Shown here in pieces: positions 1 through 23,900 of a DNA stretch of 64,000 nucleotides. Origin of the DNA: Pegea sp. RAD2-039 (Eukaryota > Chordata > Thaliacea > Salpida > Salpidae). The notes below the pieces were generated by a model. The model worked only from the letters and a program-made list of their open reading frames with translations. It was not told the origin of the DNA and did not search any database. The stretch lies in NCBI GenBank assembly GCA_034620365.1, contig JAQGEQ010000071.1, forward strand, positions 806,001 through 870,000, in the 5' to 3' direction. Every line of letters begins with the position of its first letter. Within the stretch, counting starts at the first letter, position 1. Made by a program: the position numbers and the translations under genes.

Positions 1-3000
1 TTGGTGTAGGTTTGCCATACATAGGGACAGCAATTCGTAATGTGTTACCAGCTCTTACTGAGATTACTTTTTGATCAAATAACTCAGAACCAAAATTGGG
101 TATCATGTAGCGATTAGTTGGAACAACATCGTTTTGCAGCATAGCTTCTTTTGATCTACCAGCATCATTATGAGCAAATAATCGGAATCGATAGAGATTT
201 TTATCAGAAAGACCTGTTGCTATGTAAACAGGAATTTTTAACCGAGTTTGAATTTCCTTCCAATCACTATATGCTTCATCATCTGAATTGATATCAGTAT
301 GACATTGTTCCAAACTGTAATATGTTACACCTGCCCCTCCATCATACGACGGTGACTGCCATTCAAGTGTAACTGATGTAAGTGTACAATCAGTTACTTT
401 GAATGATTCAGGTGGTCCTGGTGGGTATGTTTGTTCACATATTTTCACTTGCTCAGTTGTTTCACTTGGTGGACTAAGACCTCCAAGGTTTTGTGCAAAT
501 ACTCGAAACTGTTGATTGGTTCCTTCAATTAAACCATGAGCTCTTAAACGGGTATCATGAGTTGGATTACGATTTACTCGTAACCAGCGAGTTGCCTTTC
601 GATCACGACGTTCGACAATGTAACCAGTGATTTCAGATCCACCATCTGATTCTGGTTTTGTCCACGTGATAACACAACCATCTCGAGCTATATTCGTTAC
701 CATAGGCATTCGTGGTGCTGTAGGTACTGTATAGTCCTTATGTAGAGTTATTGGTCCAATTATTACTGGCTCTCCAGGACCAAGTTTATTTTCTGCTTGA
801 AGTTTGAAAGTGTATTCTCGTCCTTCTCCGAGTCCTTTAACTGTATGTTCTAATCGAACTATTGTTTTAGATACTGGCACCCATGATAAACGGGAGGTTT
901 CTCGCTTTTCTAATCGGTAATTAGATATTGAACATCCGCCATCAATTGTGGGTGGCTGCCATGAAATTGTACATTTTTCATCTGAGGCGTTTACAATCTT
1001 AGGAAACTGACAAGCACCTGGTGTATCTGATACCTGTACTTTTATCTCAATTGAACACACTCCACTAGGATTTTGAACCTTCAAAGTATATAGACCTGTA
1101 TCTTCTCTAGTGAGGTTTCTTATTGTTAGACAGCTAGTTCTGTCACTTGTCTCAATTTCTATTTTATTTGTTGTATCTAACTCTAGACCATCTTTATCCC
1201 ATTCAACACTCGGCACAGGTAATCCAATCACAGACGATTTTAATACCAAGGTTTCACCTGCTTTTAGTTTGAGAATATCTTTATGTTTTTCGAGCCATTC
1301 GCATTTAGCCGGTTCTATAATTTCTTCTAATTTAACTGGTCCGGTACTAGGTGAAGGCTCACTAATATTGCCAGCTGCATTATGAGCAAATACTCTGAAC
1401 TCATAGATTTCATTAACAATCAGATCTAATACTTCGTATTCAGTATCAGCAATATTGTTGAGGTTACAACGAGTCCAACGTCCCATTTCCAGCTTTTCGA
1501 TGGTGTAACTAACAATTTTACTGCCACCATCATTAAGTGGAGGCTTCCATTTGAGAGAAACACTTCGTTTTTTCATCGATTCAATTCGAAGATTACAAGG
1601 GGAATCAATTGGATCTCTTGCAAATGTCGCCTTAGAACTTACACTAGGCTCACTTTTTCCGGCAAGGTTTTCAGCAATTACTCGAAACTCATAACTTAAA
1701 CCACTTGCCAAGCTTCCACATTTAAACTTAGTGTCTAAGATAGGATGACGGTTACCCTTCATCCAAAGGATTGAATTGATGTCTTTATACTCTACATGAT
1801 ATCCTGTAATTGGAGACCCTCCGTCAGATGAAGGACTCTTCCATTTAATATTAATTGCATTTCCTGAGATTTTGACAATTTCCGGGTAATTTGGGGAATC
1901 AGGTACATCGAAGGGATGCTCTGCTTTTATAGGCTCACTTGTGAGAGGTTCACTTAAACCGAACTTGTTTAATGCACGTACACGGAAGATATATTCTCTT
2001 CCAGGATGCAATCGTGTCACTCTATAGTTTGTACGATTCTGATATCCTGAAAGTTGCTTCCAATCCATTGCTCCAGCCTCTAACTGTTCTATTACGTAAT
2101 GCTGAACAGCAGCGCCACCATCATCAATGGGTGGACTCCAACGAAGCATTATAGATTCGTTTGTCAGCTTTTCAACAATAAGTGGACCAATTGGAATAGA
2201 TGGACATGCTGTCACTATTAGTTGAACGCTCTGACTTGCCTTACCAGTAGAGTTTTCGGCAATGATATGATATCGACCATTATCAGAACGATGTAAATCA
2301 TTTATATCAAGAGCTGCGAAACGTCCTTCAATTCCAACCTTGATACGTTTTGTATTGACAACTTCAACACCATCCGAGCGCTCAAAACGGACATTAGGGA
2401 AAGGTTTCCCTGATATTGGCACACGCAAACGGAAATTAGTCCCAGCACGCTCGACTATAGTGTAGTTCATAAATGAGCTCATATCAATTGCTGGTGAATC
2501 AAATACTTCCTTTACACAAATACTTGCCGTTTCACGAGCTTCTGATACCCCAACAACGTTTTGTGCTCGTACACGGAATTTGTAGTTGCAATCAGTCTTA
2601 AGATTAGTGACTTTGTAAGGAGCACATTTATCATTTCCAGCTACGACCCAGGCTGAACTGTCACTATCTGATGTAAACTCAATAATGTAATCATCAATAA
2701 TGCTTCCTCCATCGTAAGCGGGAGGATTCCAGGTCAGGGTTACTGAGTTGTCAGTAACACCGATAACTTTCACGTCCTGTGGTGGTGAAGGTAACTCTGA
2801 TACTCGTACTTTTTCTGTTTCATTGAAGTCTCCTTTACCATGCTCATTAATTGCATATACACGAAATGAGAAACATTCTCCTTCTCGAAGGCTTGTAGCT
2901 TTATATGAGCAGCGAGTCAAATTGGCAAGATGTTGAAACGTAGTTCTGGTAGCTTCTCGTTTTTCGATAATGTAATTAGTGATATCAGAGCCACCATCAA

Positions 3001-5955
3001 ACAAAGGGGGCTCCCATGAAATCACAGCAAAACCTTTTCCTACTTTACTTACACAAAGATCAGTAACTATTCCAGGTGTAGCAAATACTTTTACATTATA
3101 TGCGACAGATGTTTTTCCTGAACTATTTTCAGCTTCTAATATGTAAACTCCTGCGTCCTCACGTTGACCTTCATCAATCACTAATGAAGCACTATTAGCA
3201 TTTGCTTCAATCAATGCCTTGCTGCTGATTTCACCGTTTTTACGTGACCATGAAACTGTTGGATTAGGACGACCTTTAATAGTTGCGTAAAGTCCAATTT
3301 TAGATCCTCCACGAACGGTTATTATTCTTCCAACTGTTGAATCAATTTCAGGGGGGAAAAGTAGGTTTTGTGGATCAACTAACTTATAAAAGTCAGCTGG
3401 AGCACCCCGTCCCACAGTATTCACAGCGTATATGCGAGCTCTGTATCTAAAAGCAGTTGACAATCCTTCTACAGTATGTGGACTTTTAGTTGTAGAAGCT
3501 TTTATCATTTCAGATTCATCTAATTCACCAGAGTCGGTCTGGGGAGTCAGTTCAATATGATACTCAATGACATCACTTCCACCATCATAGCTAGGCGGTG
3601 AAAATGCAAGTGTCACTGAATTAGAAGTTATATCCAAAACTTTTAGTTTTTCAGGTTTGCTTGGAACAAATAATGGATCTTTAGCAACTATTAAATCTGA
3701 TATGGGGCTTGGATTTCCAAAACCTTCTATGTTTTGAGCTTTCACTTGAAATTGATATTCCTGCCCTTCAACTAGACCTTGAACTCTTGCTCGACATTCT
3801 CGTACATCAGCAACTTGAATCCATTTTGCAGAAGTTGAAGATCTTTTTTCAACAATATAATTTTTGATATCCCCTTCTTTAGTCGGAGGAGTCCAGACAA
3901 TAGTAACTTCTCGCTTTTGAATATTGACAGCTTTAGGTTTTCCAGGCTCTCCAGGTAACCCAAAAGGATTTTTGGCTGTAATCGTTTCAGTCTGAGCTGC
4001 TTCACCAAGTCCTTGCTTGTTCTTAGCACGTACACGAAAAGAATACTGTTTGTCTTTTATCAGTCGATCTACTTTTAATGAGCAAGATTTCAATTCTGAG
4101 TCAATTGTCGACCAACCAGCCGACAGATTTTCTACATTTAGTTTTTCCACATTATAAGATAATATTTTATTACCACCATCGTTCAGAGGCGCTTGCCAAG
4201 TCAAAGTACATGATTTTGCATTGACATCTTTAGCAATAAGATTTTGAACTGCTTCTGGAACATCAAGTACAGTGGCAGATAGTTTCATTGAAGTCTTTCC
4301 AACTTTGTTAAGAGCTTCAATCTTGTATTCACCACTATCTGATTTGGTTAGATCATCTAAAGTGAAATTAGCAAAACCATCTGTGTATTTCAATTTATAT
4401 CGTTTTTCAACACTTGCAAGAATTTCTTGGCCTTCTTTAAACCAATTGATGAGAGGAATTGGCTTGCCTCTTACAGCAATCTTCCAAGTAAGATTTGAGT
4501 TTCGTGAAATAACTTGATTTTTAGAATCTGGTGGAACAATCTCGAGCCTTGGAGCTTCTGTTTTTTCTTCACATTTTACTGTTTCTGTTGGTAATGATGG
4601 CTCTGAGAGTGAACCAGAATAACTTTTAACAATAAAACGAAATTCATATTTCTCATTTGGAAGTAAATGGCGAACTGTGCAAACTGTTTTAGCTGCGAAA
4701 TCAGCAGTACTTGAAACCCTCCATTTACCTTTACCTCCTGCTCGCTGCTGGATTATGTATTCAGAAATTTTATTTGCTGGCATGACATCAGTATCCATTA
4801 CTTTGCATTCAAGAGTGACATAATCATGTCCGTAATCTAAAATTTCTGGTTTTTCTGGTCTGTCAAGGGCTTGTTGAAACGCAATCAGATCACTACCTTC
4901 ACTAACGTTGGATAGGCCAGCTTCATTCTCAGCATAAATGCGAAATTCATACTCTAAGCCCTGTTCTAACCCCACAACATTCTGTTCGAGAACTCGTAGA
5001 GGTGAAGCGTTGTACTTTTGCCACAGAATTGCGTTTTTGTCCTTATATTCAATATAATATCCGATAATTGGAGCACTGTCTTCACTTTGAGACGCTTTCC
5101 ATTTAATAGTCAATCCGTCTGTAGTTATTTTGGACAATTGAGGTTGCCCAGGTTGGCTTGGTACTTTATGTGGACTTTGCGGTGAAATAGGTTTCGAAAT
5201 AATAGCCGAGCTAACACCGAACCGGTTCTCAGCTTTGATTCGGAAAATGTATTCACTTCCTTTCTTCAAACCTTTTACTTTGATTGTCGGTACTGTGCGA
5301 GATGACGTCACTTGCGTCCAAGTACCATCATTTGATGAAATTTCTTGTTTTTCAACAATATAACTCAACAACTCAGCTCCAAACCTTTCTTCAGGTTCTT
5401 GCCAGTTCAAAAGAACTGTATCAGATTTAATAAACTCGACTTCAATTGGTGGACGTGGCGGGCCAGGTTTATCTTGAACCACAATGTTCACGGGCGAATT
5501 TGTTATTCCAACTGTATTTTCTGCTTCTAGTTGATAAATTCCTGCATCTTCAGACTGACAATCTTTTATAGTCATCACTGCAAAATCATCTACATGATCC
5601 AACTTAACTCGTTTTGAAGGTTCAATTAATCTTCCATTTTTATCAAGCCATGTAAATGTTGGACGTGGTGATCCTCTCACACGGACACGTGCAATAAGAT
5701 CATGACCACTTTTGGCTGAGTAAGTTAGCTCAGTTTGGTTTTCAAAGTCTATAGAGGGAGCTTCTTTGTCCTCTTTTAAGTTAATTCCTTGGTAGATTTC
5801 AGCAGGCTCACTAGAACCTTTTTCATTAAATGCTTTTACTCTAAACAGATGTGTGCAGCCTTCAGCTAAGTCGTTTACAACTGCAAGTGGTTCTTTGACT
5901 GTAGCTGATGTAAGCCATTCACTTTCACCAGCAACACAAGTTTCAAGGATGTAAC
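1..5955 (-). CDS. TTN: Exon 83 (runs off the window): C-zone-like super-repeats 2 and 3
   Basis: An open frame of at least 5,955 nt with no intron, entered in phase 1 after an AG at 5957-5956. Domains in order with rough positions: end of an FnIII (5955-5770), Ig (5765-5480), three FnIII (5475-4580), Ig (4555-4270), three FnIII (4262-3360), Ig (3355-3075), two FnIII (3085-2500), Ig (2500-2195), three FnIII (2195-1310), Ig (1300-1020), three FnIII (1020-110) and the first part of an Ig (105-1). The Ig at 3355 opens super-repeat 3, which spans 11 domains in about 3,250 nt (about 1,083 residues) and ends as the next Ig begins. The third FnIII of each triplet before a super-repeat boundary ends in a similar V-x-P-Q-N-L-type tail. 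In vertebrates this zone binds the thick filament and myosin-binding protein C. Confidence 0.88.
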
Positions 5956-8900
5956 CTGAAATAAGTTTACAATTGGTTTAAATAACTAATTATTATCAAT
6001 CAAATTAATAATCTGTGATATTGTGTCGTATTTTAGATAAAAAAATTGATAGATTTCAACGCTTTTATATTTTGAATTGAATTTTCAGTACATTAAGAAT
6101 AAATTTATTTATATAGATATTGTTTGAATAACTAATTTATTTTTGTTAATATTTAAATAAGAGTTGGAAAAAGTGTCTACCTTGTATTTTACTACCGCCA
6201 TCAGAGTTAGGTTTACTCCATTCAAGCCTAACACTAGCAGCAGTTTGATGTTTAACTGTTGGTCGTCCTGGTACTGACGGTACATCGCATATTTTAGTTG
6301 GTTCTTTAGTCACACTGGCTTCACTTGATCCATATTCATTTTCAGCTGTGACTCTAAATAAATATTTCTTTCCTCGTTTAAGGTTATTGACCTAAATATC
6401 AAAACAAAATTATGAAAACTCTGTCAATTACTAATTAAACCCATTTATACCGTATGGTTATTTCGTATACAGCTTGGAGTAACAATAGTCCATCTGCTTT
6501 CGTCAGCATCTTTCACTTCAACTGCATATTGAAGACTTAGACTTCCTCCGTCAAACTCAGAAGGAAGCCAGCTGATTGTAGCAGACGAGCTTGTGACATC
6601 TTTTACTTTCAAATCTCGTGGCTTTGAAGGAGTGTCAAACACAGTAAGATCACACTGAAGGTTTTTAGTTCCTGCTTGATTTGAAACTTCCACAACATAT
6701 TTACCGCAGTCGTCCCTTTTAATATTTGAATTGTTGAAAAATTTGGGTTGAATTGTGGAATAAATATTTGAATGGTTTAGTAAAATTTTGAACTACAGTT
6801 GTATTGAAGACTAATTTACCTTTGAACTTTATCCAAAAGGAACCTTACAGTCTTTTTATTCTTATCAACTTTTACTTTTGAATCTTCAATTTTACTTCCA
6901 TTTTTCATAATAGACACAGTAGGAGTAGGGTTTCCACTAAAAGCTGCCTTGATGCTGACAGAGCCTCCAGCTTTTATCTAAGAGATTTAAGGTAACAAAT
7001 AGTAGACTAATTTTATGTAGATGAGCAAACGTTTTAATCACTATATACAGCAACAAAGCTATTGACAACCCAAAGTTGAGACATAAACAATTAATTCTAT
7101 TTAAAAAAAAATTATTTTTACGAACAGATTAAGTTATCAAAGAAAACTATGGTGCTTGTCAATGTCTAGTTATTGCTATTTATAAATTATAAAAAACTAC
7201 ACTATTATTCAAATTAATAAGAAGTTATAAACATACCTTCATTATTGGACGAGTTTCCTCAAATGAAACTTCAGGTGCAATTACAAGGTTCTGTGGTACT
7301 ACTGTTCCTGGCATGTAGGCAAATTCACTCTGTCCAACCTCATTAACAGCAGCAACTCTGATTTAAAGTAATGAGATTATTAAGTAAATGCAGAAAATAG
7401 TTCTTGCAATGATTTCATAAATTTTCGTTAAACAAAATTTGTCAATCATTTTAATATACAAGATATTATTGAAATGTTTATACGTGAAACTTACACAAGA
7501 AATACTTTGCTTATCTTAACTTAAGAAGATTATACAGGCTGAAGAATATTTTGAGAAACAAACTAATTATGTGAGAAAACCCTTTTAATCTTAAATCTAT
7601 CTCATCTATTTGTTTAACATAAAATTTCTCTTTCGAAGAAAATCTCATCACAAATTTTACCTAATTGTATATTCTTCATTTTCTTTAAGTCCAGTAATCT
7701 TAACTGCTCCGTCTTTGGGCATCTCTTGACTTTGAAACCATTCATCATCTCCAGCAGCTGCTAGTTTATATTCAATGACGTATTTAGTGACCTCTGCACC
7801 CCCGTCAGATATAGGACTGCTAAATCCAATGTTCACTGAATTGGATGTTGTTTGTAATGCTTTTAAAGCTAGTGGAGCTCCTGAAACGTTAGTTACATAA
7901 ATATTGTATTTTAAAAATATTTCATTGCAGCAAACCTGGTACAGTTGATGGTTGCTTGATTACAACGTAATCTGTTGGGCTTGAAAGTTCACCTGTTCCA
8001 GCAGCATTTCGAGCTTTTATCTGAAACTGAATTTCGCTTCCTTCACGCAGCTTGGTCACCCGATGACGACAGTCTAAGTCCCCATCAATTTCAGCCACGT
8101 GTGTCCACCGTGTACTTTGTCTGAGCAAATAGTGATGTTTAAAAAATTGATAGCCAAATGTGAATTAGACAAACTTTTCTCGTTTCTCAAGAATGTAGCT
8201 AGCAATTGGTGTAGCTTTGGCAGGTTTATTCCATGTGACAACACAGGAGTCACTTGTGATGTTGGAGACCTTAAGGTTTTTAGGTTCACCTGGAACTCCA
8301 TGAGGAACTTTAGCAATGAATGAAGAAGATTCTTTGAACTCTCCAATGCCATATTTATTCACAGCTGCTACTCTTACTAGATATTCTTTTCCCTCAATAA
8401 TTTTGATCTTTGTTTTTGTGTCTTTTAGCTGAAAAGAATAGTTAACATAAAATTAGGTCAATAAAAATCCTGCTTGAACACTTACATCACTTTTAATTGA
8501 ATTCCAGCTAGTCTTATTCGATTCACGCTTATCTATAGTGTATGATATTACATTAGAGCCACCATCATAAGATGGTGCTTCCCATGTAATAACTGCAGAC
8601 TTTTCGGTTACATCTTTCACACTGAGATTACTTGGAGGTCCTGGACTACCAAGGACTTTTACATTTAGAGCAGAAGTGACATCTTCACCAATTTTGTTGT
8701 TAGCAGTTGCAGTGTAAACTCCTGAATCAGATTTAGTCACATTTCCTAATTTCAATGTGGCACAATTTTCTTGGAAATCGAAGTTAGAACGCGGGCTAAC
8801 TTCTACTTTTTCATTATTTTTGAGCCATGTGACTTGAGGATTTGGTTTTCCTGAAATAAGTCAAAGTTTGTAAGAATTGGAAAAATACTTTTCTGAGGCT

Positions 8901-11900
8901 CTACCATAAACATCAGCCTTGATAATAAGGTCATCTCCCGGCTTCGCAATGATATCTCTTCTGTTTTCTGATTTTAGTTCAATTCTTGGCTTGAATTTTT
9001 CTTCTTTACATGTAACAGGTTCAGAGGATTCTGAAGGTTCAGAAAATGACCCCAAAGAGTTTTTAGCTTTCACTCTAAACATAAAAGATTTATTTGAATT
9101 GTACTTCTAGGTATATCATCGCTATTATAAAAATATTTATTAAATGACTTTGATAACAATTTTTATCCGTAAAATTCAAGCTTTTCTTAACCTAAATAAA
9201 TATTCATGATTTTCTTCGAGACCCATTACAGTGAAATTATTTTCACTAACGTTTCCATACGAGCAGACAGACCAATGTTCTTTTCGTATAAGGTCGTATC
9301 TTTCAACCTCATAGCCTGAATAAATATATTTTCAAGAATAAATCATTCAAAGTGTTATTATTATATACCTGTAATTTTACTTGATTGTTCATCTTGTGTT
9401 TCAGGTTTTGACCAGGTTAATGAAACATGTGTTCTACCAACATCTGTCGCTCGTGGTTGTGATGGTACCGGAACGTTTTCTTTGCACAAGATTGATTGTG
9501 ATGTAGTTGCATACTGACTGCGTCCTGCATCGTTCTCAGCACAAACTCGAAATTCATATTCGACATTTGGAGTTAAGCCAGTGATCTAAATAAAGTTTAA
9601 CCAGTTAGTTAATAAGTTTAAATAAAACGATGACACACATTAATCCTAGAATAAAACTACTTTGTTGAAATATTTATGATAAAATGAATGTGTAGCTAAA
9701 AATACTTGAAGATTGAAACAAAATAACCTTGTAGTTACTGTTTCTTGTTAAAGATTTTACTGTAGACCAAAGGATTTCTTTTTTGCCTTTGTACTCTACT
9801 TGGTATCCTTTTATTTTGTTACCTAAGATAAATTTAGCATAGTATCAGTAAATTCTTTAGCTGTTTATCATTCAATGATTATCTTGAAATTATTACCTCC
9901 ATCATTAGTTGATAACTTCCATTCAAGATCAGCAAAATCATTTCCATATTTTGTGACTTGAAGATTTGTTGGAGCACTTGGAGGTTTGAATTGATATTCT
10001 GCTGTAACGTAATCTGAGTCCAAAGCTTCTGACAAACCAAATCTGTTTTCAGCAAATACACGAAACGTATATTCGCATCCTTTTGTTAATTTGCGGGCCT
10101 AAAATAATTGTTGTTAATTTCTCTTTACAAATCTTATATGATTTAGATTACCTTTATTGAATTTGCAAGTACGCTAGCTGAAACTGATTCCCAGGTGTTT
10201 GAATTGCGTTGTTGTTTTTCAATCACATAGTTGCTGAGTTTGACGCCTCCATTATTTAAAGGGGGATTCCAACTGATTGTAATATCTTCAGCTGTAATTT
10301 CATCAAATCTAATTGGACCAACTGGAGGACTTGGCCGATCAAGAATAACCACCTGTAATTAAGTACACAATGTTTCTATGGACTAAACCACTGCAAGTTT
10401 GCAACGGCTTTTAAATAAACTTTTATCAATTCATTAAAATTGAGACAAACCTTTAGCGGCACAGTTTTGCTTCCAGCAGTGTTTTTTACATTGACTTCAT
10501 ATATAGCAGCATCTTCATGTTGGCTCTTCTTAATTACAAGTGAAGTTTCGATTTCACTGTCGCATTCTAACTGTACTCTGTCTTCTTGACTACTTCCAAT
10601 AATTGATTTTCCATCTCGTCTTGACCATACGACTTTTGGAGCTGGATTACCTGTACATAAGTTGCAAAATTTATATAAGGTTGAAAAAAATTTAAAGCTA
10701 AAGGCTAAACAAACCTTCTAACGTGCCATGAATACGAATTGGGGCACCAACTTTGGCACTAATTGTATCGCTTTTGAAAATCACATTTGCTGGAACAGTG
10801 TTGTCTACAGTTGTATGTGCTTGTAAGGTTTGTTTGCTTTCACCTTTTCCAGCTGCTGTTATAGCACTGACACGAAACTTGTAGTCTTTTCCTTCCTCTA
10901 AGCCCGTAACGATTGAACTACATAACAACTAATTAATCAAACGTTTTTCATTTACAACAACAAACCTTAGATCGCTTGATGTAGAGGACATCACCCAGTC
11001 ACTTTCACTACTGACGCATTTGTATTCAACTTGATATGAGGTGATCCTACTACCGCCATCACTGACAGGAACTGTCCATGTCAGTTTAGCCCAATCTTTT
11101 GAAATGTCCAAAACAGAAAGTGTAGTGGGAGCAGAGGCAGGTTCATGAGCGATCACTGCTTGTGTTGTAATTGCAGCTTGGCCGAAACCTTTACTATTTT
11201 CGGCCTTGACTCGGAAAAGGTAATGTGCGCCAGGATATAAGTCAGTGATTAGTATTTGTGTTCGCAATGTCTGCAAATCGAAAATTTTATATATTTGAGG
11301 AGTCCTAGCTTTTTTTAGTGTTTCGTCACTGGATGATTTACATTAGAAGTTGAAAATTTACTATCTAATTGTAAGCACTTAATAAAATACTTTTATAAGG
11401 AAGCATTTATCAAGTTTCGAAATCACTTAGTAATTATTCAGTGTGTCTAGTATGAAACTTGTCATGAAGCTATGTTAAGCATGTATAGTTTTGAAAGAAA
11501 TTACTTTAGAAGACACTGTGGTCCAAGATTTCTTTCCAACATCTTGTTTTTCTATTTTATAGCAAGTGATTTCACAACCTCCATCATTGTCTGGGGGGCT
11601 CCAAGTCAACTTTGCTGATTCTTGAGTCACCTGAATACAGTTTAAAATTGAGTTTTCTTAAATCAAATCAATGTTGATTTTTATATTGATTAGTTTAATG
11701 CTTAATTAATAAAAATTTACAGAAATTTCACGAGAAATGTTAACTTTACATCATGAACTTGTAGATCTTGAACTCTTCCTGGTACATCTAACACATTAAC
11801 TTCAAAATTAACGTGTTTAACACCTCCAGCATTTTGTAGTTGTAACTCATAGTTGCCAGTATCTTCATATTTACTTTTTTTGATCTTTAATACACTGTAA

Positions 11901-14900
11901 TAAAACAAAATGGTAAATTTACTAGAAACTGCTTCAACAAAATCTTTTCTAACAAACCTTTTTAGTTTGGTATCTTCAATATCAGCACGATCATTGAGGT
12001 CTCCTTCAACCTTACTCCATGTAGCAACAGGAGAAGGTTCACCTTCGAAATTAACTTCTAAGCGAAGAGGTTTTCCAGCGTCGATGTTCATTGTTTCTTG
12101 AGTTTCCGACCCCAATGAGTATGTTGGAGGTTGTTCAGCCTCTTGTGGCTTGATTGAAGTGCTCACTTCACTCGCTTCGGATTCACCAACCTCATTGATT
12201 GCACGTACACGGAATCTAATGATTGTAGTAGACATTAGAAAAATGATCATAAGATTTAGATAAAAACTTTTTCATATGATTCGAAATGTCTAACTTAATT
12301 CCTCTTAACATTTGTATGTACGTACTTATAATTCTCTCCAACGTTTAAGTTTTCAGCTGTGTATGTGGTTCCAGCAACTTCATCATTCAAACAATTAAAA
12401 TTGTCAGAAGATTCTGTTGCCATTTCAACTGCATATTTTGTAGGTTGAGGACCAGTACTATTATCTGTCCATTTGATCGTTATTGTAGTCGTAGTAGTTT
12501 TCACTACTCTTGGTACTGTAGGAGCTTTTGGAACGCCTACAAAAATCTTCTTTTATTGCTCAGCTTTTATTTGTTGAAAATAGAATACTATGGAGTGATT
12601 ATTTTTTAATTTGATGTAAATTTGTGCAGTGGTTACAAACGACATTAACGAAAGCTTGTGTTATCATAAAGTGTAAAATTATTGGTTTCTTAAAACAATA
12701 ATCTACTTACGTGTTCCAAGAGGCTTAGCAGGCGTTTTTGGAGTTGTGCCAGGCTTTTGAGTACCACTCATGCTAATTTCAAAGGTAGTTTCGACTTTGC
12801 GCTTTCTGAATTTTTCTTGAACTTCATTTTTAGCGTCATCTAGCGGTTCAGTTGGAGCAAAATGCTTTACTGAAGATGCTAAGCTGACATTAGAGCTTTG
12901 ACGACTAATAACTACAGGCTCTTGCTTTTTCATTTCGAATTTGGCCTGTTTTGACGTTTTTGATGATTTAGAAGAAACTGACTCACTATCTTCATCTCTA
13001 AAAGTCTTAGATTTTGTAGATTTATCAGCTTTAAGAGCCTCTTGCTTAACTTTCTTGAGCTTAAAGTCTTCAAGTTCATTCTTCTTAATGCGAGTTTTTT
13101 TCTTTTCTGACTTAAGAAGTGCTTCTTTAGCTTTCTGCAAAGCTGAAGCACCAGAATCATCTTCTATAGTTTCAGACTTTCTAACTTTTTTCTTTTTTAG
13201 ATTAAGTTTATCGCTTTTGAGTTTTAATTTCTCATCAACTAACCCTTTTTCTTCTAACTTTCCTTTCTTAAGCGATTTATTAATATCACTAACTTCCTTT
13301 TCTTCTTCAACAAAACTTTGTGCTTTCTTAGAAACTGATTTATTTCTTTCATTAAAAGATGCTGCTGACTTTTCACTAAATTTATGTTTCGAGTTTTCGA
13401 TTGAAAGTAATTTATTTTCGTCATCATCTGAAAATAACTCAGTAATTTTTACTGAGCTTGGAGTTGTAAAATTATCATCGAAGTTAATACTAGAAGTTTG
13501 TTTAGTCTCAAATGTTTTCTCAAATCTACTTGAACCTTTTTGTCTAGCTGACTTTGTAAGGAAACCTTGATTGCTTTCAACAGATTCTGATGAAAAATTC
13601 TTAACACTAAAAGACTTTGAAGAAACTGACATGCTAGAAGATGACTCGTCACCATCTTTAGAGACTGTGACTTGCATTGACTTCGACATACGAGTCGAAG
13701 TGAAGCTGCCATCTTGTTTAAGATCTACGACAGAGCTGACAGATTTCTTAACAACTCGATCGGCTCGCTTTGATAACTTGCTTTCGCTTACATTTAAACT
13801 AGATGCAAGCATTTTCATCCGTTCTTGAAGACTCATATCGTCTTCCTCTTCTTCAAAATTATTCTTGGTAAGTTTATCACTTGTTTTCTCAGTGCTTAAA
13901 TTGAAATAAGAGCTTTCACTCAATGATAGCTCCGCAGCTTGTTCGCTCTCTTTAGCACTAACTACTGATGACTCATAGGCTAAAATTGCTGTTGATTCAT
14001 CATCTGTGGGTTTTAGTATTGGCTCAGAGACTTCTGCTTTATATGTATTATCATGAAAATCTTTTATTAGTTCATTCTGTTGCGCCACATAACTATCACC
14101 TTTTATATTATATTTTTCATCCTCTGGTGGTAATGTTGAAGTTGAAACTAGTTCGATAGAAACTCCATCAGCTTCATGCGCGTCCTTGACAACTATTTCA
14201 CACAAATCTGGGTAATCTTCAGTCGGTGTGCTGATAGAATATGGAACATAATTTGAGTGCTGAGAAGCTACATTTTCACTTGTAATTGTCTCGTTACTTT
14301 TCGCGCTAGTTTCATCAGAAACTTTGTCTGAATTCAACTGCTGTTCCATTTTTTGTCTTTTTTCTGCTGTACTCGTAATCTCCGGGATCACGTTATTTTT
14401 ACTTTCATCTACATTAGGTGCCTGGTCTAATGAAGATTTTTCTGTCTCAACCTCTATGGATTTTGACTGTGTTGTAACGATTTTATTTTTAGTGTTTGTT
14501 TTTGATTGTTTTTGTTTAATTTTTTCTTGTTTTTGTTCATTTTTTTCTTGTTTTTGTTCATTTTTTTCTCTTTTTGGGCTTTTTGGTTTACTCACAGTAT
14601 TTGTTTGATCTAAAACAGTTTTTGAAGTGTTCTTTTGATTAACAGTTGTTTCATTTTTGGAATTACTAAGAATTTCAGCTTTGGTGTCAGCAGATTGTTC
14701 TGTTTGTTCGGAATGTTGTGTCTGCTTAATTTGCTTATTTTTCAGATCAGCATCATCACGTTCAGACGTGATTTGTGTCGTTGTATTTTCATCGGAAATC
14801 GAATTATTTTCAATTTTGTGTTGTTCTTTTTTATGAAGAGAAACAACTTCTAATGTTCTTAGATCATTTGTATTTTCTTTGCTTTGATCGTCAACTGATG

Positions 14901-17900
14901 ATTGATTTGTTGATTCAAATGTTTCGTTAAACCTCATTTGGTTTAGGGTTTCTTCTGAAGATAAATAAGCTTTACTGCTTAAAGAGCTATCTTCTTTTAT
15001 ATCTTGTGTTGAGATATTTTCAGGAATGTCTGGTAAAATTTCTTTTTGATAAAAGTCATTTGACTTGGATTCTTTGGTAATTTTAGTATCTAAGGTATCA
15101 AAGCTTTGATCCTTTGTGCTTGCATCAACTGAAACATTTTCAGTAGACTTTGATATTTGTTCCTTATAGACTTTACTCTGCTTTTCATAATTGTCACCAG
15201 AGCTTGTTGACAATTGGTTTGCAGAATCTGAAGGTCTTGCGTCCATTACTGGATGAAAACCTGAATGTGAAAGTTTTTCTGAATGACTTAAAGAATTTAT
15301 CTTTAATGATTTTAATTCTTTTGATTCTAATGAATCTTTTGTGGTCAACAACTCATTGAGTGTTGATGTTTCTTCAATTTGTTTTGAAACTTCATTTTTA
15401 GAAGATTTCATAAGTCTTTGATTAAAATCTTTATCAGAGTGCGAAATGCTTGGCAGAGCTAGTCCTCCTTTACTAGCTTCCAAACCGACTCTTTCGTTAT
15501 TTTCAAACTCATCAGATTTTAACTGACGAATTTCAGGATCTAAACCTCTACGATAATTATCCATGATATTAGAATATGACACATCCTCACTGAATGTAAC
15601 AAAAGATTTATTTTTGTTACTTCTTGTGCCATTTCTATTTTCATCAATAGAAGTTTCAAATCTTGGATCAGATATTTCTTTGCTTGTTTCGAAATGTTTT
15701 GGTATATTTCTCAAACGTTGGTGTTTACCATCTGCTTGATTTAGTCGCATATTTTTTTGTACTTGAAAATCTTCTAATAACCTCATCTCTTCAGATACTT
15801 TAGCCGGATGATTAGAGCGTCTACTAAAATTAGAAGAACCCTCATCATATTCTTCATATGACTGATTCTGATTACTCTTAGAAGAGTTTACTGATGCTTG
15901 AAAACTTCCTCTTCTTTCTCTTTGAACTCTTAACTGTGAAGATGATTTTGGTTGATAATCTCGCTCGTAACTGTCGAGTCTTGATGGAACAACACGACCT
16001 CGGTTTCTATCTGAACGAGAAAAATCTCTCGGGTTGTAATCACTTGCAAAGTCATCGTATCTCGTTGGAGTTGCAGATGCTCTTGAAGATCGCTTGTCAA
16101 AGACTAAAGCGGATCGTTGATCATAGGTCACTGGATGTCTTTCAAATCTTGTTGGAGATCGATAAACGTGTCCCCCTCTTTCACTATAATTTGTTGATGG
16201 AGATGAAGCTCTTGGTCGAAAACCTCCTTCATAAGTTTCAAATATTGCAGGACTGTGAGGTCGATGTATTTCTCTTCCTCTACTTTTATTGTACTGCAGA
16301 GGAGAAGGTGAACGAGTCCGAATGCTTCTTTGTGGAGAACTGAATCTAAGGGGACTCGGGGACCTGTAAACTTCTCTTTGTCTGCTGATGTAATGTGCTG
16401 GAGTTGGAGAGCTTCGACCAAAATCCCTTCGTGAATTTTCTGATCTTAAAGGACTGGGTGATCGATAAACACTTTGGTCATACTCAAATCTAGAAGAAGA
16501 TGGAGATCGTGGACGAATTCTCCTTTGAGGAGATTCAAACATGACAGGACTTGGAGATCTGTAATAATCTCTTTGCCTGCTATCAACCAATCGAGATGGT
16601 GATGGAGAAATTGGTCTATAATCTCGACGAGATCGCTCATATCTTCTTGGACTTGGAGACCTATAAGAGTCCCTTATTCTCATTCTGCTCACTTGTGAAC
16701 GAGTTGGTTGTCTTTGTTCGTAGGGTTCCAATTGAGATGGAGATCTATAACGCTCTCTACCACGACTTGTTTCTGAGCGCATAGGTGATGGTGATCGAAA
16801 ATAATCGCGCCTTTCTCCGTATCTAGATGGAGTTGGTGACCTTTGAAACAGTTCAATTCTGTTGTGATACAATCGTGATGGTGTAGATGATCTGGAAATG
16901 TCTCTGTACGGAGGATAGTAACTACTTCGAGAATCTGAGCGATCTTGTCTTCTGGGAATCCTTGGTCTTGGAACTCTTTCTCTGCTTCTGGGACCTCTAA
17001 ACGCCACATAATTATTATAACCATCCTCACTATACGGTTGTGAATAATATTGTGACATTTGGTTCCTGTTGCTTCGTCTTCCTCGTGAATTTATTCCTTC
17101 GACATCTGCGTATTTTGACCTTTCACCAGAGGCTGGCATAAATAAACGAACTGGCGGTCTTCCACGTCTGGCTGGCCCGCTGTAGCTTTGGCTACTTCTC
17201 GGTCTATCACTATCGTATCTAATTGGAGCCCTTGCCCGCGGAAACCTTCCTACAAGTCTCGAAACTTCCTCATCTGAGCCCCCACTAGTTCTTCTTCTGC
17301 GTCTAAATCCAGCTGAACTCGAAGACAGAGGTCCGTGACTCGGACTTCTTGAAGAAGATTTCTGTCTTTTGCTACTGTCCATTGGGGACAGTTAGCACTT
17401 ACAACTGACACCTTTCTTTTTAAAATACTTACTTAAAACCTTTAACTAAAAAACAAACTCAAAATCAGAACCTAACAACTTCACTACCTTTTCAAGAAAT
17501 TACCTTTCGATAACTTCAAAATCAGGTAGATACTTTCGCCCTGGTACTTCACTTATGAGAAGTTCTAGCAAAAGCTGAAAGGCTCCTTCACTGTTGCTTA
17601 CTTCTTGTGATGCAATATTAAATACTTTGTTTCTTCATTTTCTCCCAGGAGTATATGTTTTCAAAGATGGAGTTGTTAATAAATTCCTATATTTAGTTAC
17701 ACGTCAGAAGCTTTAGCATACGTCAAAACCTATCCAGCATATGTCCATGACTCATGTTAGCTATTTTATTTTGTTTGCATTACACATCTTAAATCAACGA
17801 CAAAATATCATTTCTGTTATATCTTATTTAAGTACAACATTTGTGATGATAAAAAGTTTAATTTTAGTTCAAAGCAAAAAGCAGTGGAAAATGTAATTAG

Positions 17901-20900
17901 TAATGATTACGTGCGTGAAAAATATCTGATTTATCGGTAGACGTTACTGCAAATATTTACATATACTACAGCAACAGCGTTACAGAAGGCTGTAAGAATT
18001 ATATCGCAGAGCAAAATTTACCAATTTGTGAAAGAAACATAAAAACGATGTAATTAAAGATTACATAATTTCAGTGTAAAATACGTGAGTTAAAAAATCT
18101 TTGCAAACTGTGAATTGGTGCGCAGGATCTAACATCATGTTCAAAGTTGAAGAGACCAATTTACACTTGCCTTGTTTCGTGCAGTAAAACAACGAACTTT
18201 CACTCCAACTGCTTTTACCAAAGTTATTTTTGCAACAGATACGAAATTTGTATTTAGTATTTTCTTTAAGTTCTTCCACAACCACTTGGCATTCATCAAC
18301 TCGCTTACTTGTACATCTATGAAATATTAAAAATCATTTTTTTCAATAACTCTACATCTGTTCAATACTAACAATGTCCATGGGGCTTCTTTTCCTTTAA
18401 CCTTCTTTTCAACCAAGTATTCATTCACTAAGGAACAAAAATCATATTTTTCTGATTTCCACGACAGTAGCATAGTTGTAGTAGTTATCTTTGTAGCAAT
18501 TGGTCTACCAGGCTTGTTTAAATAATCTGAGTTTTCAGAAAACATTAATTTTCGATTCTAATTGGTAAATTATTTCTAGAAAAACCTTGTAGCTGTGTTA
18601 AAGGTGTCCAATCAGATACCAAGCTTTCGCTTTTTCCAGCAATATTTTCAGCTGTAAGTCGAAACATGCAGTCACTGTAATCATCATTTTTAGGAAGGTT
18701 GCATCTAGTTGCATCAATATTTTTAAACAATATTGTCCATGGTGAAGAATCAGATTTCTTTTGAATTTCCACCATGTAAGTAATCATATCAGATCCTAGA
18801 AAAGTTGTTAATTGGGAATAAATCAAAATAATTTGAATTGAAAAGCTGTTGTTTATTCTAATTGTAATAACTCGCCATTTTCTAAAATTTTAACCACTTG
18901 AATAAATCAAAAGAAAGAATAAACATAACTTATGTTCAAGCATATTTAATTTTCAGTGGATAATATTATCACGTTGAGTCAAAATATTTGATCATATATA
19001 AGGACTGATAATTTAAAGCTGTTATTGCAGTCTTGAAAAAGGGTAAATGTTTGTTGCAGCATTTAGTGAGTTTGATTTCGTGCTTTTACAGAGTATTACG
19101 TCATTATAAAAGACTTGAAGCTTTTGCAAGAACGGTTATAACGTCATTGCTTAAACTTTTAATTAATTCAGCTGTCTATCTACCATTAGATGAATACGGG
19201 TTCAGTAAATAACTATTTCAAGGTTGAAGAATACTAAGCTTCAAAAACTTATAGCAATTATTTGAAGACTGGTGAATCGTTCAGTATATTTTGTAATTAT
19301 CTATTAATGCGCACTAATTTAATACCAAACATAAACTAATAAGTGAGTAAATTAACCAAAAATGGTTAATGAGTAAAGATTTAGGGCTTTTTGTTAATAT
19401 ACTCGTACTTGCATAAGTTATCATTAAAAAAGTAAATAAGCAACAATCAAAAATAAGTCTTTCGCAGTATACTTCTAGCATCAAATGATTGCAGAAATTT
19501 ATTTGTGAAGCGACTCTGCATGACTTGATTTAATTAGCTAAGGGCTTTATCGAACCAACTGACATTTGAATTATTTTCTGTGCTATACGTGAGATCAAAA
19601 CTGATAGTGCAATTAATTATAACTTATTGATTTATCAATTGGAGAGTCACGCTTAATTAGATAAAAATTTATTAAATATTATTTCTTTCTTGAACTTTGC
19701 TGCGATAATTGAAATTTTGGTGAAACTTTTTAAGTATTTGAGTTCTTTAACAAAATAGCAATTTTGTGTAATAAATGTTTACATTAAAAGTGATAGTTTA
19801 CGACTAAAATATCAGCCTTCAGTACAGCTCTATTTGTTCCATAAACAATTATTACAGTTTTTTTGTTTATGTTTGTATTTAAATACATTTTGAACAAATA
19901 CTCCAGCCGAGAACATACTTTCTTAATTTACAAACTATTTGATTAACAGTAAAGCTATCAAATATAATCTGCAAAAAACTTTTGTTATTAGAGTAAGTCT
20001 AGTCGCAGATTTGTTTGGTCAAGATAAGAAATTTTAAATCAAGTTGAAAAACAGCAATACCTCCGTCATCTTCTGGAGAAATCCATGACAAATATAAGTA
20101 TCCATCATCAAGAAGTGATATTTGAAGTGGTGGCCGTGGGCAACTTGGTTTTCCTACCACTGACAGTCTAATTTGAATTTGATCATGGCCAATTGAGTTT
20201 GATGCTAGTAGCACATAGCTCCCTATTAAAAATGAAATGTTTTTAAAATTAATTTTCGTATATAGTCAATTTTGATAGTAAATGTTTAAAAGAATGTATT
20301 TATAATTTAATAATACAAAGCTATGTAATATATCGATTGAAATATTTACCGCCATCATCTCGGGAGCAGTTGTGGATGAGAAGACAGTTATCAAGAAAAT
20401 GATATTTTGCATCATTTAATTGTATTGTTTTTTCATCCTTTTGAAGCTTTATAGTGGGTGTAGGTACACCACGTAAACAAAATTTGAAATTGAATACTTC
20501 ACCCTCAGCAATGATAAAACTTTTTTGTGTAATTTGACTCTGGTCAAATATTGGTTTTAAATTTTCAAGATAAGAACTTGATTCCGTCAAATCAATCGGT
20601 CGTTTACTTTCCGATGGTATGTTTATGAGTGTAGGACCCAGGTTAGTAGAAACACTAGAGAAATCTGATAAATTTGCTGCAGAATCTTTTCTAAGTGAAT
20701 CTTCACTAAAGTCTTTTAGTTCCGTTTCTCGTTCTTGATTACAAATACTACTGTCTGAAATGCTTTTCATTATATCTCCAGCTTCAGATCCGTCAAGATC
20801 TTTTTCAATTTGTAAATCTTTCATGACAGTAGCATCTGCATCATAAACTTTATCTTTTTCATTGTCCTCACCTGGTTGCAGTGATTCAACATGTTCATGT

Positions 20901-23900
20901 TCAACAGCTTCGTTCACTGACTTTTTATTTGAAAAAGAAGCATCATCTTCGTGATTCACAGTTTCATCATCAGGAAGATTTAAACACTCCTCATCATTTA
21001 AAGGATCTTTTCTTTTTGCAGACTTACTTTTAATTTTCTTTTTCAAGAAAAGCTTTTTCTTCTTTTTCTTCTTATTTTCTCCTTTTTCAGCATTTTTACT
21101 TGATTGTGCTAAATTACTAACTTCCTTTTCATCACTAATGCTTTGACAGGAAGTTTTCTGGCCATTTTCTTCTCTATGAGTCATATCTACAGCTTCATGA
21201 TTTTCATGCTCTTCATTTTTAGAATCTATGTCAGCAGATGATGAATGTAAGTCGTCCATTTGTGATAAAATATGAAACTCATCATCTTCACCTTGATTTA
21301 CAGACCCTAATGTGTGCTCACTATCGTTTGTTTCATTTGCTTTTGTTTTATTGCTTTCTTCAGAATGATTAAGATCTACTAAATCGAGCTCTGCTGGTTT
21401 ATTTTTTGCTGAATCTTTGACATTAATATCTATTATTGATTCTTTTCCTTTTGAGATCTCAATATCTGATGCAGAACTTTCAACATCATTTTTTAGATTA
21501 TCAAAAGATCTTATCTCATCGACTGATTTCTGAAAGTCTTTATCATTCAATTTACTTTTTTTGTCACTTTCAAGTTGCTTATAGTCCTCATCATTCTGAC
21601 TATCAACTGGCATTTCATTTTCAAAAGTTTGTTTTTCTTGATTTAAATGGCTATTTTGGATTTTTTGCAATTTTAAAAGCTGATGAATTTCGCTTTCACT
21701 CGAGCAGTCTGAAAATACTTCAATTACTTCTTCATCGTTTATGAAGCAATCGTATTCAGGAAATTCAACGATAGTTACAGAGTCTGACCATTCACTAGAT
21801 GCTCCTATTCCAATTTTATTTTGAGCAAAGACACGGAACTCGTAAGAGAAACCAACTCGGAATCCACCACAATTGATTTTGTTCGAAGTAATATGTTTCT
21901 TTCCTAATTGATACCATCTTGGTGAAGAATTTTCACATTTTTCAACAATGTAATTTGTAATTTCACAATTACCACACCACTCAGGTGGTTCCCATGACAG
22001 CGTAATGACATTTGATTTTGGACGTTGAAACGCTACCAGCCTAATGGGAGGTCCAGGAACAGTTTGTGTTGGTCGTGTTACTATAGAAATAGAATCAAGA
22101 GCTGGTCCATTTCCAATTCGATTAATTGCACGTAAACGAAATTTATATTCTAAATCTTGCTGTAACTTTGTGAACGTAAATCGACAATTACTCGCTTTTG
22201 ATGTTACAGCTGATTTAATTTTTCTAACAGTTTCAATTTTCTCAATTACGTATCCAGTGATTGGACATCCGCCGTCATTTGATGGCGGATTCCATGAAAT
22301 TGTACAAGTTTTGTTTGAAACAGAGAAAACTCTAACTGGACCACGACAAATAGAAGGCTTCACACAAACTTTGATTTGAAATTCTTTACTAACTTTACCA
22401 ACTTCATTTGTAGCTGTCAAAATATAACCTCCTGCATGCCTTCCTTCTGCTTCTTGTGTTCCCAATGAAACTTGGTTTCCATGACTATCTTCTTGTAACT
22501 CAACTTCACTTTCATCTGAACGAGACCAATCAATTCGTGGAATCGGATGTCCTGAAAAAGTTGCTTTCATTTGCAATGGTCTCGAAGCATCTACTTCAAT
22601 GTAAGGTTCTTCTATTGAGATGATGGGAATCATTAGAATACGTGGTTGAATGAATTCATCTGCAATCCAAGGAGCACTAACACCAAATTCGTTAACAGCC
22701 GTAATTTTGAACAAGTAAAAATGATCAGGGTTTAGATTTTCAACACAGTAAGTAGTTAATAGTGAGATACCAGCTTCGGTCCAATCATTTTCCAAACGAT
22801 CCATCGAAAAAATCTTATAATTGGAAACCTCAGTGTCATCATGTTTAAGAGCTTTTTTCCACGATAATTGAACTGCTCCATCACGTACAACAGATGTACA
22901 AACATCTTCTGGTGTAAGTGGTGTCAAATCTATTGCAGTGACATAATCATACAGCTCAACAGTGCGGCTTGCCCCACATTGGTTTAAAGCAGAGACTCGA
23001 AACTTTACATGAAGTTTATTTTCAACCAGAATCAAGGCTTTCAAATTCAATGTCTCTTCGACAATTGACCAAACATCAGATTCTTTTTCACGTTTTTCTA
23101 CAACATAACTTGTGATTGGAAGCCCTCCGTCATCATCAGGTGGATCCCATGAAAGTGTACAAGCGTTGTTAAAAATTATTGAGCAATATAAGAATTTGCA
23201 AGCGCATGGTGGAGATACAACTTTAACAGAAGCTTTTGCGGTTGCTTCACCAACTTGGTTAGTGGCAATTAAAGAATACAAACCTGAATCACTTCGCTTG
23301 CAATTAGGAATCTTAAATATCAAAGAACCTGATTCACTATCTTGAATTTCATCTCCAGTAATTGGCTTAGAATCTTTGAACCAACTTAGCCTTGCTAAGG
23401 GTCGACCACTGACCTTAGCACGTAAAATCAATTCACTTCCTTCTGAAATTATTTCTTCAGAAACTAAAGTGACTTGAGGTTCTTGAGGAAACTGTCCAAT
23501 AAAAACAGATTGACTTGCTCCGCTAATTCCACATTCATTCACAGCTAAGACTCTGCATTGAAATTCAGAATCTTTGTCGATATCAGTTATAATTAGTTCT
23601 GTTGCAGCAACATTATCGTCATCAACATTCTCCCACTTTTCTTCTTGATATTTTTGCACTAAATAACCCGTCACTGAGGCTCCACCGTCATCTTTTGGTT
23701 CACTCCATCGAAGAACAACTGTTGAAGCTTCACGAGACTCGACAAATAAATTAGTTGGAGCCTCTGGACATCTAACTTTTCGACTTGCTTCAATCAAAGC
23801 AGTTGGTACTGATGGTTCACTTTGTCCAACTTTATTGACAGCTCTTACACGAAAACCGTAAAGATGATTCTTAATTAATCCACTAACTCGAAATTCTCGC

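Follow-up and report, generated by a model that had tools for sequence, protein, structure and literature searches.

We analyzed a 64,000-nucleotide stretch of the genome of Pegea sp. RAD2-039 (contig JAQGEQ010000071.1, positions 806,001 to 870,000; hereafter the window, in which positions are counted from the first nucleotide), focusing on a long minus-strand open reading frame that we call exon 61. The window is part of a single giant gene, which extends over the minus strand of the contig from ~886 to 730 kb and contains ~320 Ig and FnIII matches (321 after merging split hits) detected with hidden Markov models built from the gene itself. A titin-type C-terminal kinase follows the Ig/FnIII domains of the A-band part; its best match in the PDB is titin (6ygn, 1.8e-67), and the next is twitchin (3.1e-51). 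Judged by its sequence, the host gene is a chordate-type titin. Such a gene was expected, since urochordate and cephalochordate titins are reported to contain I-band and A-band regions as in vertebrates (PMC12198301).

From the Ig at 30571 onwards, the numbers of FnIII domains after each Ig are 3, 1, 3, 1, 3, 2, 3, 2, 2, and 3, and C-zone groups follow from the Ig at 12085. The C-zone, which comes after the D-zone, consists of twenty consecutive Ig-Fn2-Ig-Fn3-Ig-Fn3 super-repeats; nineteen are exactly 2,3,3, and one was counted as 2,4,3, probably because a split FnIII was counted twice. Exon 61 sits inside the last group of three FnIII before the C-zone, with one FnIII between it and the C-zone. 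A preliminary description of this DNA had placed the exon in an Ig-Fn-Fn-Fn group at the D/C-zone boundary, after the second FnIII of the group and before the third, and the domain order agrees. The twenty super-repeats comprise 11 domains each; human titin has eleven C-zone super-repeats. At ~750-769 kb of the contig, outside the window, several super-repeats are near-identical, introns included, with a spacing of ~4.2 kb, pointing to recent tandem duplication.

The 1,557 residues encoded by exon 61 from ATG 17382 include no Trp and one Cys, and by charge and hydropathy their composition is of the disordered type. Only one of the 12 other minus-strand frames longer than 700 residues in 214 kb, the frame at 62177-54957, is also of this type. 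No Pfam family and no PDB sequence matched exon 61 at E ≤ 1, and no NCBIfam model, these being models for prokaryotes, matched it at E ≤ 0.1. The earlier characterization of the exon as domain-free is thus upheld. PEVK-type modules were not detected in it either (no PPAK-like motifs; P, E, V, and K together make up 28%). Two blastp runs (E ≤ 1) revealed no relatives among the other minus-strand frames of at least 25 residues in the 214 kb, and a search of the 105.7-Mb genome, in which 13 candidates were scored, returned only exon 61 itself at E ≤ 0.001.

The exon had also been described as rich in RSPSP units and SR-like. We found six copies of RSPSP, all within residues 1-430, while 1,000 shuffles of the same residues contained 0.04 ± 0.21 (maximum two). 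In this part of the protein, SP occurred 24 times (9.5 ± 2.6 in shuffles), RS 25 times (17.5 ± 3.3), and SR 17 times (17.3). Since the SP excess is larger than the RS excess, proline-directed sites are more prominent than RS dipeptides. Self-similarity peaked at a lag of 17 residues (z 8.2 against 300 shuffles) and at 34 (z 5.6), reflecting 16 degenerate copies of a repeat. The repeat units, which were delimited by a regular expression of our own, start with RSPSP or a similar sequence and are 11-19 residues long, 13 of the 16 measuring 15-17. Beyond residues 1-430, only 6 of the 33 [ST]P dipeptides are found, and the remaining ~1,100 residues are S/K/E-rich. The RSPSP richness is therefore real but confined to the 17-residue repeat (residues 164-420) and not a property of the whole exon. 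Likewise, though RSPSP units are present, the longest RS/SR run is three residues and SP is in greater excess than RS, which sets the exon apart from a classical RS domain. Such a domain comprises at least 50 residues with more than 40% of them in RS/SR dipeptides; in exon 61, the maximum for any 50 residues is 32%. No RNA recognition motif was present in the exon 61 frame (no Pfam family at E ≤ 1). At the DNA level, the RSPSP array was not seen as a tandem repeat. The best of seven rows was a 21-nt array inside the exon, at 14499-14576 (score 114, others 31-47), with 3.8 copies encoding approximately KNEQKQE.

Splice sites were scored with donor and acceptor models trained on 55 introns of this gene, each interrupting an Ig or FnIII domain (10th percentiles of the reference scores, 5.1 for acceptors and 4.9 for donors; acceptor median, 8.5). 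At the downstream junction, donor 12711 and acceptor 12536 scored 7.9 and 8.3 and are both in phase 1, so the 3' boundary proposed earlier can be retained. Donors scoring at least 7.9 are rare (three other large titin frames, 44,799 nt in all, contain 18), and the presence of one at the very end of the exon 61 frame is thus not casual. Skipping of exon 61 by splicing from 18171 to 12536 is also in frame, in phase 1, and yields a 22-residue Fn-Fn linker; 79 other Fn-Fn linkers of the gene span 20-25 residues (median 23). Donor 18171 is a GC donor, of which there are none among the 55 reference introns; donor 18165, a GT site scoring 3.9, is likewise in frame. Because the skip is in frame and the linker is of normal length, transcripts that lack exon 61 would yield a normal filament.

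At the 5' end, the junction 18167/17374 of the preliminary description is in frame, but we could not substantiate it: the donor (3.2) and the acceptor (-2.3) both score below the reference 10th percentiles. A branch-point-like CTAAC is located 18 nt before the AG of acceptor 17374. The other frame-opening acceptors nearby scored 2.4 (17347), 1.2 (17344), and 2.0 (17312). An acceptor of at least 6.3 was found at the start of 12 of 14 large frames; in the remaining two, the best score was 2.4 (exon 61) and 3.6 (the disordered frame at 62177). In the four control frames that afford a fairer comparison, the acceptors scored 9.2, 7.2, 11.8, and 6.3, the training site of the last one scoring 4.1. 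Upstream of exon 61, donor 17504 and acceptors 17445/17439 delimit a candidate intron of 58 or 64 nt (first quartile of the 55 reference introns, 62 nt). Its score sum was equaled in 3 of 500 dinucleotide shuffles of the intron, and 30 of 500 contained some pair over both thresholds. In 155 kb, donors with such an acceptor partner numbered 17 on the sense strand (four of them in the training set) versus 7 on the antisense strand, an antisense rate of 0.035 per 765 nt. The acceptor is followed by an in-frame TAA and then by ATG 17382, the sole ATG before the frame, an arrangement resembling either a 5' untranslated exon joined to a first coding exon or the acceptor site of a spliced leader. That the exon is an insert within the filament is doubtful: its downstream splice is strong, but the 5' acceptors score at most 2.4, the linker formed on skipping is normal, and the exon has its own ATG behind an in-frame stop.

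Two kinds of signal may be relevant to the expression of the exon. The cluster of CRE-type (cAMP response element) and MEF2-type motifs listed in Table 1, a suggestive candidate for an internal promoter element, is the sole such cluster within 60, 100, or 200 nt across the 214 kb. An 18-base pattern of the ascidian spliced leader plus GT had 99 exact copies in the genome, while a reversed control had none. Many of the spliced-leader-like genes form a ~199-bp tandem array (C4:1135044-1142219), and more copies are present on many contigs. In ascidians, the promoters of muscle terminal genes are reported to be enriched in CRE sites (PMC6589888).

The reading that we favor, with a probability of roughly 0.45, is that exon 61 serves as the alternative first coding exon of a short titin starting at the C-zone. 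In the model that we infer for the promoter, start codon, isoform, phosphorylation, and function, the transcript would start inside the intron behind FnIII 2, from an internal promoter near 17.7 kb and/or by addition of a spliced leader at acceptor 17445/17439. With the candidate 5' intron spliced out, what lies upstream of 17504 would be a 5' untranslated exon. Translation would start at ATG 17382, and exon 61 would be spliced from 12711 to 12536 into the last D-zone FnIII, the entire C-zone, and the kinase and M-band parts; full-length titin would omit the exon by splicing from 18171 or 18165 to 12536. The product, a thick-filament and M-band form of titin without the Z-disc anchor or the I-band spring, would carry its disordered head of 1,557 residues in front of one FnIII and the twenty C-zone super-repeats, followed by the kinase and the M-band. 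The acidic linker at 20603-21778 would be present in the full-length form only. The basic RSPSP head, with its many proline-directed Ser/Thr, may serve at the free end as a phosphorylation-switched tether or binding surface: phosphorylation by proline-directed or SR kinases would reduce its positive charge, and partners could be released or bound. That all of this applies together, i.e., that there is an ascidian short C-zone-to-M-band titin with an internal start, possibly a spliced leader, and a phosphorylatable 17-residue-repeat head, we consider rather unlikely. The body-wall muscle of ascidians is reported to be unstriated (PMC6589888), which makes a titin without a Z-disc anchor conceivable in that tissue, as a matter of speculation.

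Several observations weigh against an alternative first exon. The context of ATG 17382, CCCCAATGG, is mediocre, with no purine at -3. The stretch before donor 17504 is coding-like, being open in one frame with 17.0 bits over 33 codons, a value attained by 56 of 11,222 windows in DNA assumed to be noncoding (two stretches of which overlap), 43 of the 56 at one perhaps coding place; the sequence upstream of the donor could be a coding exon. The CRE/MEF2 cluster was sought post hoc, after the sites had been seen, and when sites were placed at random over the 214 kb, such a cluster arose in 79 of 2,000 trials with a 60-nt limit and in 170 of 2,000 with a 100-nt limit. CRE density is itself unremarkable: there are two sites in the intron versus 0.25 expected, yet 800-nt windows with five exist elsewhere. 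As to the splice models, near-identical repeats (contig 751-769 kb) supplied 15 of the 55 training introns, two of the 55 reference acceptors score below 2.4, and 8 of the 12 control frames owe their best acceptor score to training-set sites. Exon 61 also contains 12 deeper acceptors scoring at least 5, six of them in phase 1 with FnIII 2, so a cassette made of its later part alone, without the RSPSP repeat, is possible. Finally, the disordered frame at 62177-54957 starts with a weak phase-1 acceptor (3.6), compatible with the phase-1 donor of the Ig exon before it; its strong acceptor (13.3) lies further upstream, with a closed reading frame in between. The 62177-54957 frame may be an ordinary internal exon, and if it is, the same acceptor picture at exon 61 proves nothing.

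The main rival is that exon 61, whole or in its later part, is a cassette exon included in some full-length titins, where it would form a disordered hinge at the D/C-zone boundary. We regard this as possible, though doubtful. Donor 12711 and the end of FnIII 2 are both in phase 1, which makes an exon of 17312-12711 symmetric, and the inner phase-1 acceptors 13427 (11.3) and 14954 (8.2) permit a shorter symmetric exon; the frame is also kept if splicing passes through a small exon, 17603-17504, and enters at 17347. The acceptors available to the whole exon score only -2.3 to 2.4, although alternative exons often have weak acceptors. Each version of the cassette has a cost: a start at 17312 leaves out a coding-like SRSPS stretch, a start at 14954 or 13427 lacks the RSPSP repeat and leaves 800-1,300 upstream codons without use, and the strong acceptors 17445/17439 get no role.

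Those two acceptors would be used if FnIII 2 were joined through the small exon to 17445/17439, where translation would stop at once, giving either a Z-disc-to-D-zone titin, by a logic like that of novex-3, or a transcript destined for decay. When read by eye, the coding-like frame does meet a stop within one or two codons after splicing from 17504 to 17445/17439, but the 1,557-codon frame that follows and its good downstream splice would be left unexplained, and we consider such a truncating choice highly improbable. It is also improbable, if less so, that exon 61 is a separate, intron-poor gene nested in an intron of titin, whose own stop codon would be the TAG at 12705-12703 and whose poly(A) signals would lie at 12571 and 12557. 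Such a gene would account for the ATG behind a stop, and AATAAA occurs twice in the 174-nt intron versus 0.32 expected. However, AATAAA is cheap in DNA of 32% GC, the stop falls inside the strong donor CAC/GTAAGTAG, whose phase matches the next titin exon, and the genome contains no second copy of the sequence at E ≤ 0.001.

Table 1. Coordinates of exon 61 and associated features in the window (splice scores in parentheses).
Feature	Position	Strand	Basis or remark
Exon 61 open frame, 1,562 codons	17391-12703	minus	Open reading frame listing
Exon 61 coding part if the start is ATG 17382, 1,557 residues and one base	12711..17382	minus	Ends at donor CAC/GTAAGTA
16 degenerate copies of a ~17-residue repeat, ~[V/Y]YRSPSPxR(F/Y)xxSRxR, residues 164-420	16123..16893	minus	Self-similarity lags
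Phase-1 deeper acceptors in exon 61	15260, 14954, 14951, 13850, 13586, 13427	minus	Scores 5.0-11.3; best 13427 (11.3) and 14954 (8.2)
In-frame TAA directly upstream of the open frame	17392..17394	minus	From acceptor 17445 to the frame, no ATG other than 17382
Candidate 58-nt intron (64 nt with acceptor 17439)	17446..17503	minus	Donor 17504 (9.6), acceptors 17445 (6.8) and 17439 (7.6)
Two TGACGT (CRE-type) and one CTAAATATAG (MEF2-type) in 39 bp	17687..17725	minus	Candidate internal promoter element, suggestive only
FnIII 2 of the group	18171..18494 (pieces 18494-18373 and 18316-18171)	minus	Phase-1 donors 18171 (AAG/GCAAGT, 5.8) and 18165 (3.9)
FnIII 3, first part	12325..12536	minus	Acceptor 12536 (8.3, phase 1), can receive exon 61 or FnIII 2
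C-zone start, first of twenty Ig-Fn2-Ig-Fn3-Ig-Fn3 super-repeats	1..12085, continuing past the window to contig ~740 kb	minus	Domain hidden Markov models
Acidic linker, 392 residues, net charge -44	20603..21778	minus	Upstream neighbor of the Ig-Fn-Fn-Fn group of exon 61; ends counted by hand

Other observations were made at the locus and elsewhere in the genome. The third FnIII of the Ig group preceding that of exon 61 may have been lost at the acidic linker. The frame at 62177-54957 (minus strand; protein P0001) is a giant disordered frame of 2,407 codons located upstream of the A-band part. It contains RTPTP/RTPSP motifs and an RPASCDCV...RRWNPRxRxFE-like motif, twice whole and once partial, and no Pfam family matched it at E ≤ 1. 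A voltage-sensing phosphatase fragment was nearest to PDB entries named "voltage-sensor containing phosphatase" (51 of 91 residues identical), ahead of TPTE2; we take these entries to be Ciona's. Together with the spliced-leader-like array, this fragment gives the genome an ascidian look, and, so far as a single fragment can show, it does not point to Ciona intestinalis/robusta. Two PTEN-like single-frame genes of 411 codons, on different contigs, are very alike by eye and are possibly retrocopies. A search for calsarcin as a muscle marker gave no match, but the control was likewise without a match anywhere.

Vertebrate titin contains several disordered segments, namely the N2B unique sequence, PEVK, novex-3, and the KSP linker of the M-band, some of them with Ser-Pro phosphorylation sites. 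Exon 61 resembles these long, domain-free, exon-coded stretches but lies in the A-band part, whereas they are located in the Z-disc, I-band, or M-band. As a large disordered head at the edge of the C-zone, it would present a phosphorylation target of a new kind next to the thick filament. The R-S-P-S-P chemistry is common to exon 61, SR proteins, SRRM-type RSPSP proteins, and the RSRSP stretch of RBM20; unlike the SR and SRRM types, exon 61 is devoid of an RNA recognition motif, has no (RS)n run longer than three residues, repeats with a period of 17, and belongs to a sarcomere gene. A muscle SR kinase, SRPK3, and titin are reported to be linked genetically in human disease, and SRPK3 hyperphosphorylated, in cells, an RBM20 reporter containing the RSRSP stretch; RBM20 is the likelier substrate in the authors' opinion, and direct phosphorylation of titin is mentioned by them as possible (PMC10937387).

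Ciona and amphioxus connectin, like the host gene, are chordate titins comprising an I-band region and an A-band region that binds myosin (PMC12198301). In the portions of the literature covered, on Ciona titin, Cronos, A-band disorder, and ascidian titin isoforms, no description of such an exon was found; the primary papers on Ciona (Hanashima 2012) and amphioxus (Ohtsuka 2011) are outside this scope. Exon 61 appears to be a new, optional, and probably N-terminal disordered exon of a chordate titin.

The closest known parallel is Cronos, a C-terminal titin made from an internal promoter and reported in zebrafish, mouse, and human (PMC4720518). The proposed short titin would likewise be C-terminal, started inside the same gene, and equipped with the A-band, kinase, and M-band, and the signals and phase of 12711/12536 are consistent with a start exon spliced into the A-band part. 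The Cronos promoter, however, is reported to lie over human exon 240, and its product to include distal I-band (PMC4720518), whereas exon 61 is not in the distal I-band but one FnIII before the C-zone, and the start of the short titin would fall on the D/C-zone boundary, its head being large and disordered; we claim no homology of the promoters. In fly and nematode, titin's spring half and its thick-filament half are reported to be encoded by two genes, and in chordates by one (PMC12198301, PMC4720518), a union that the vertebrate Cronos start partly undoes. If our reading is true, A-band-only products of the united titin gene exist outside vertebrates, and titin without Z-disc anchorage would be available to unstriated muscle, for example that of the ascidian body wall. 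With a second start, at a different place and in a tunicate, one could then test whether separate A-band titins, as from the vertebrate Cronos start, are an old habit of the gene.

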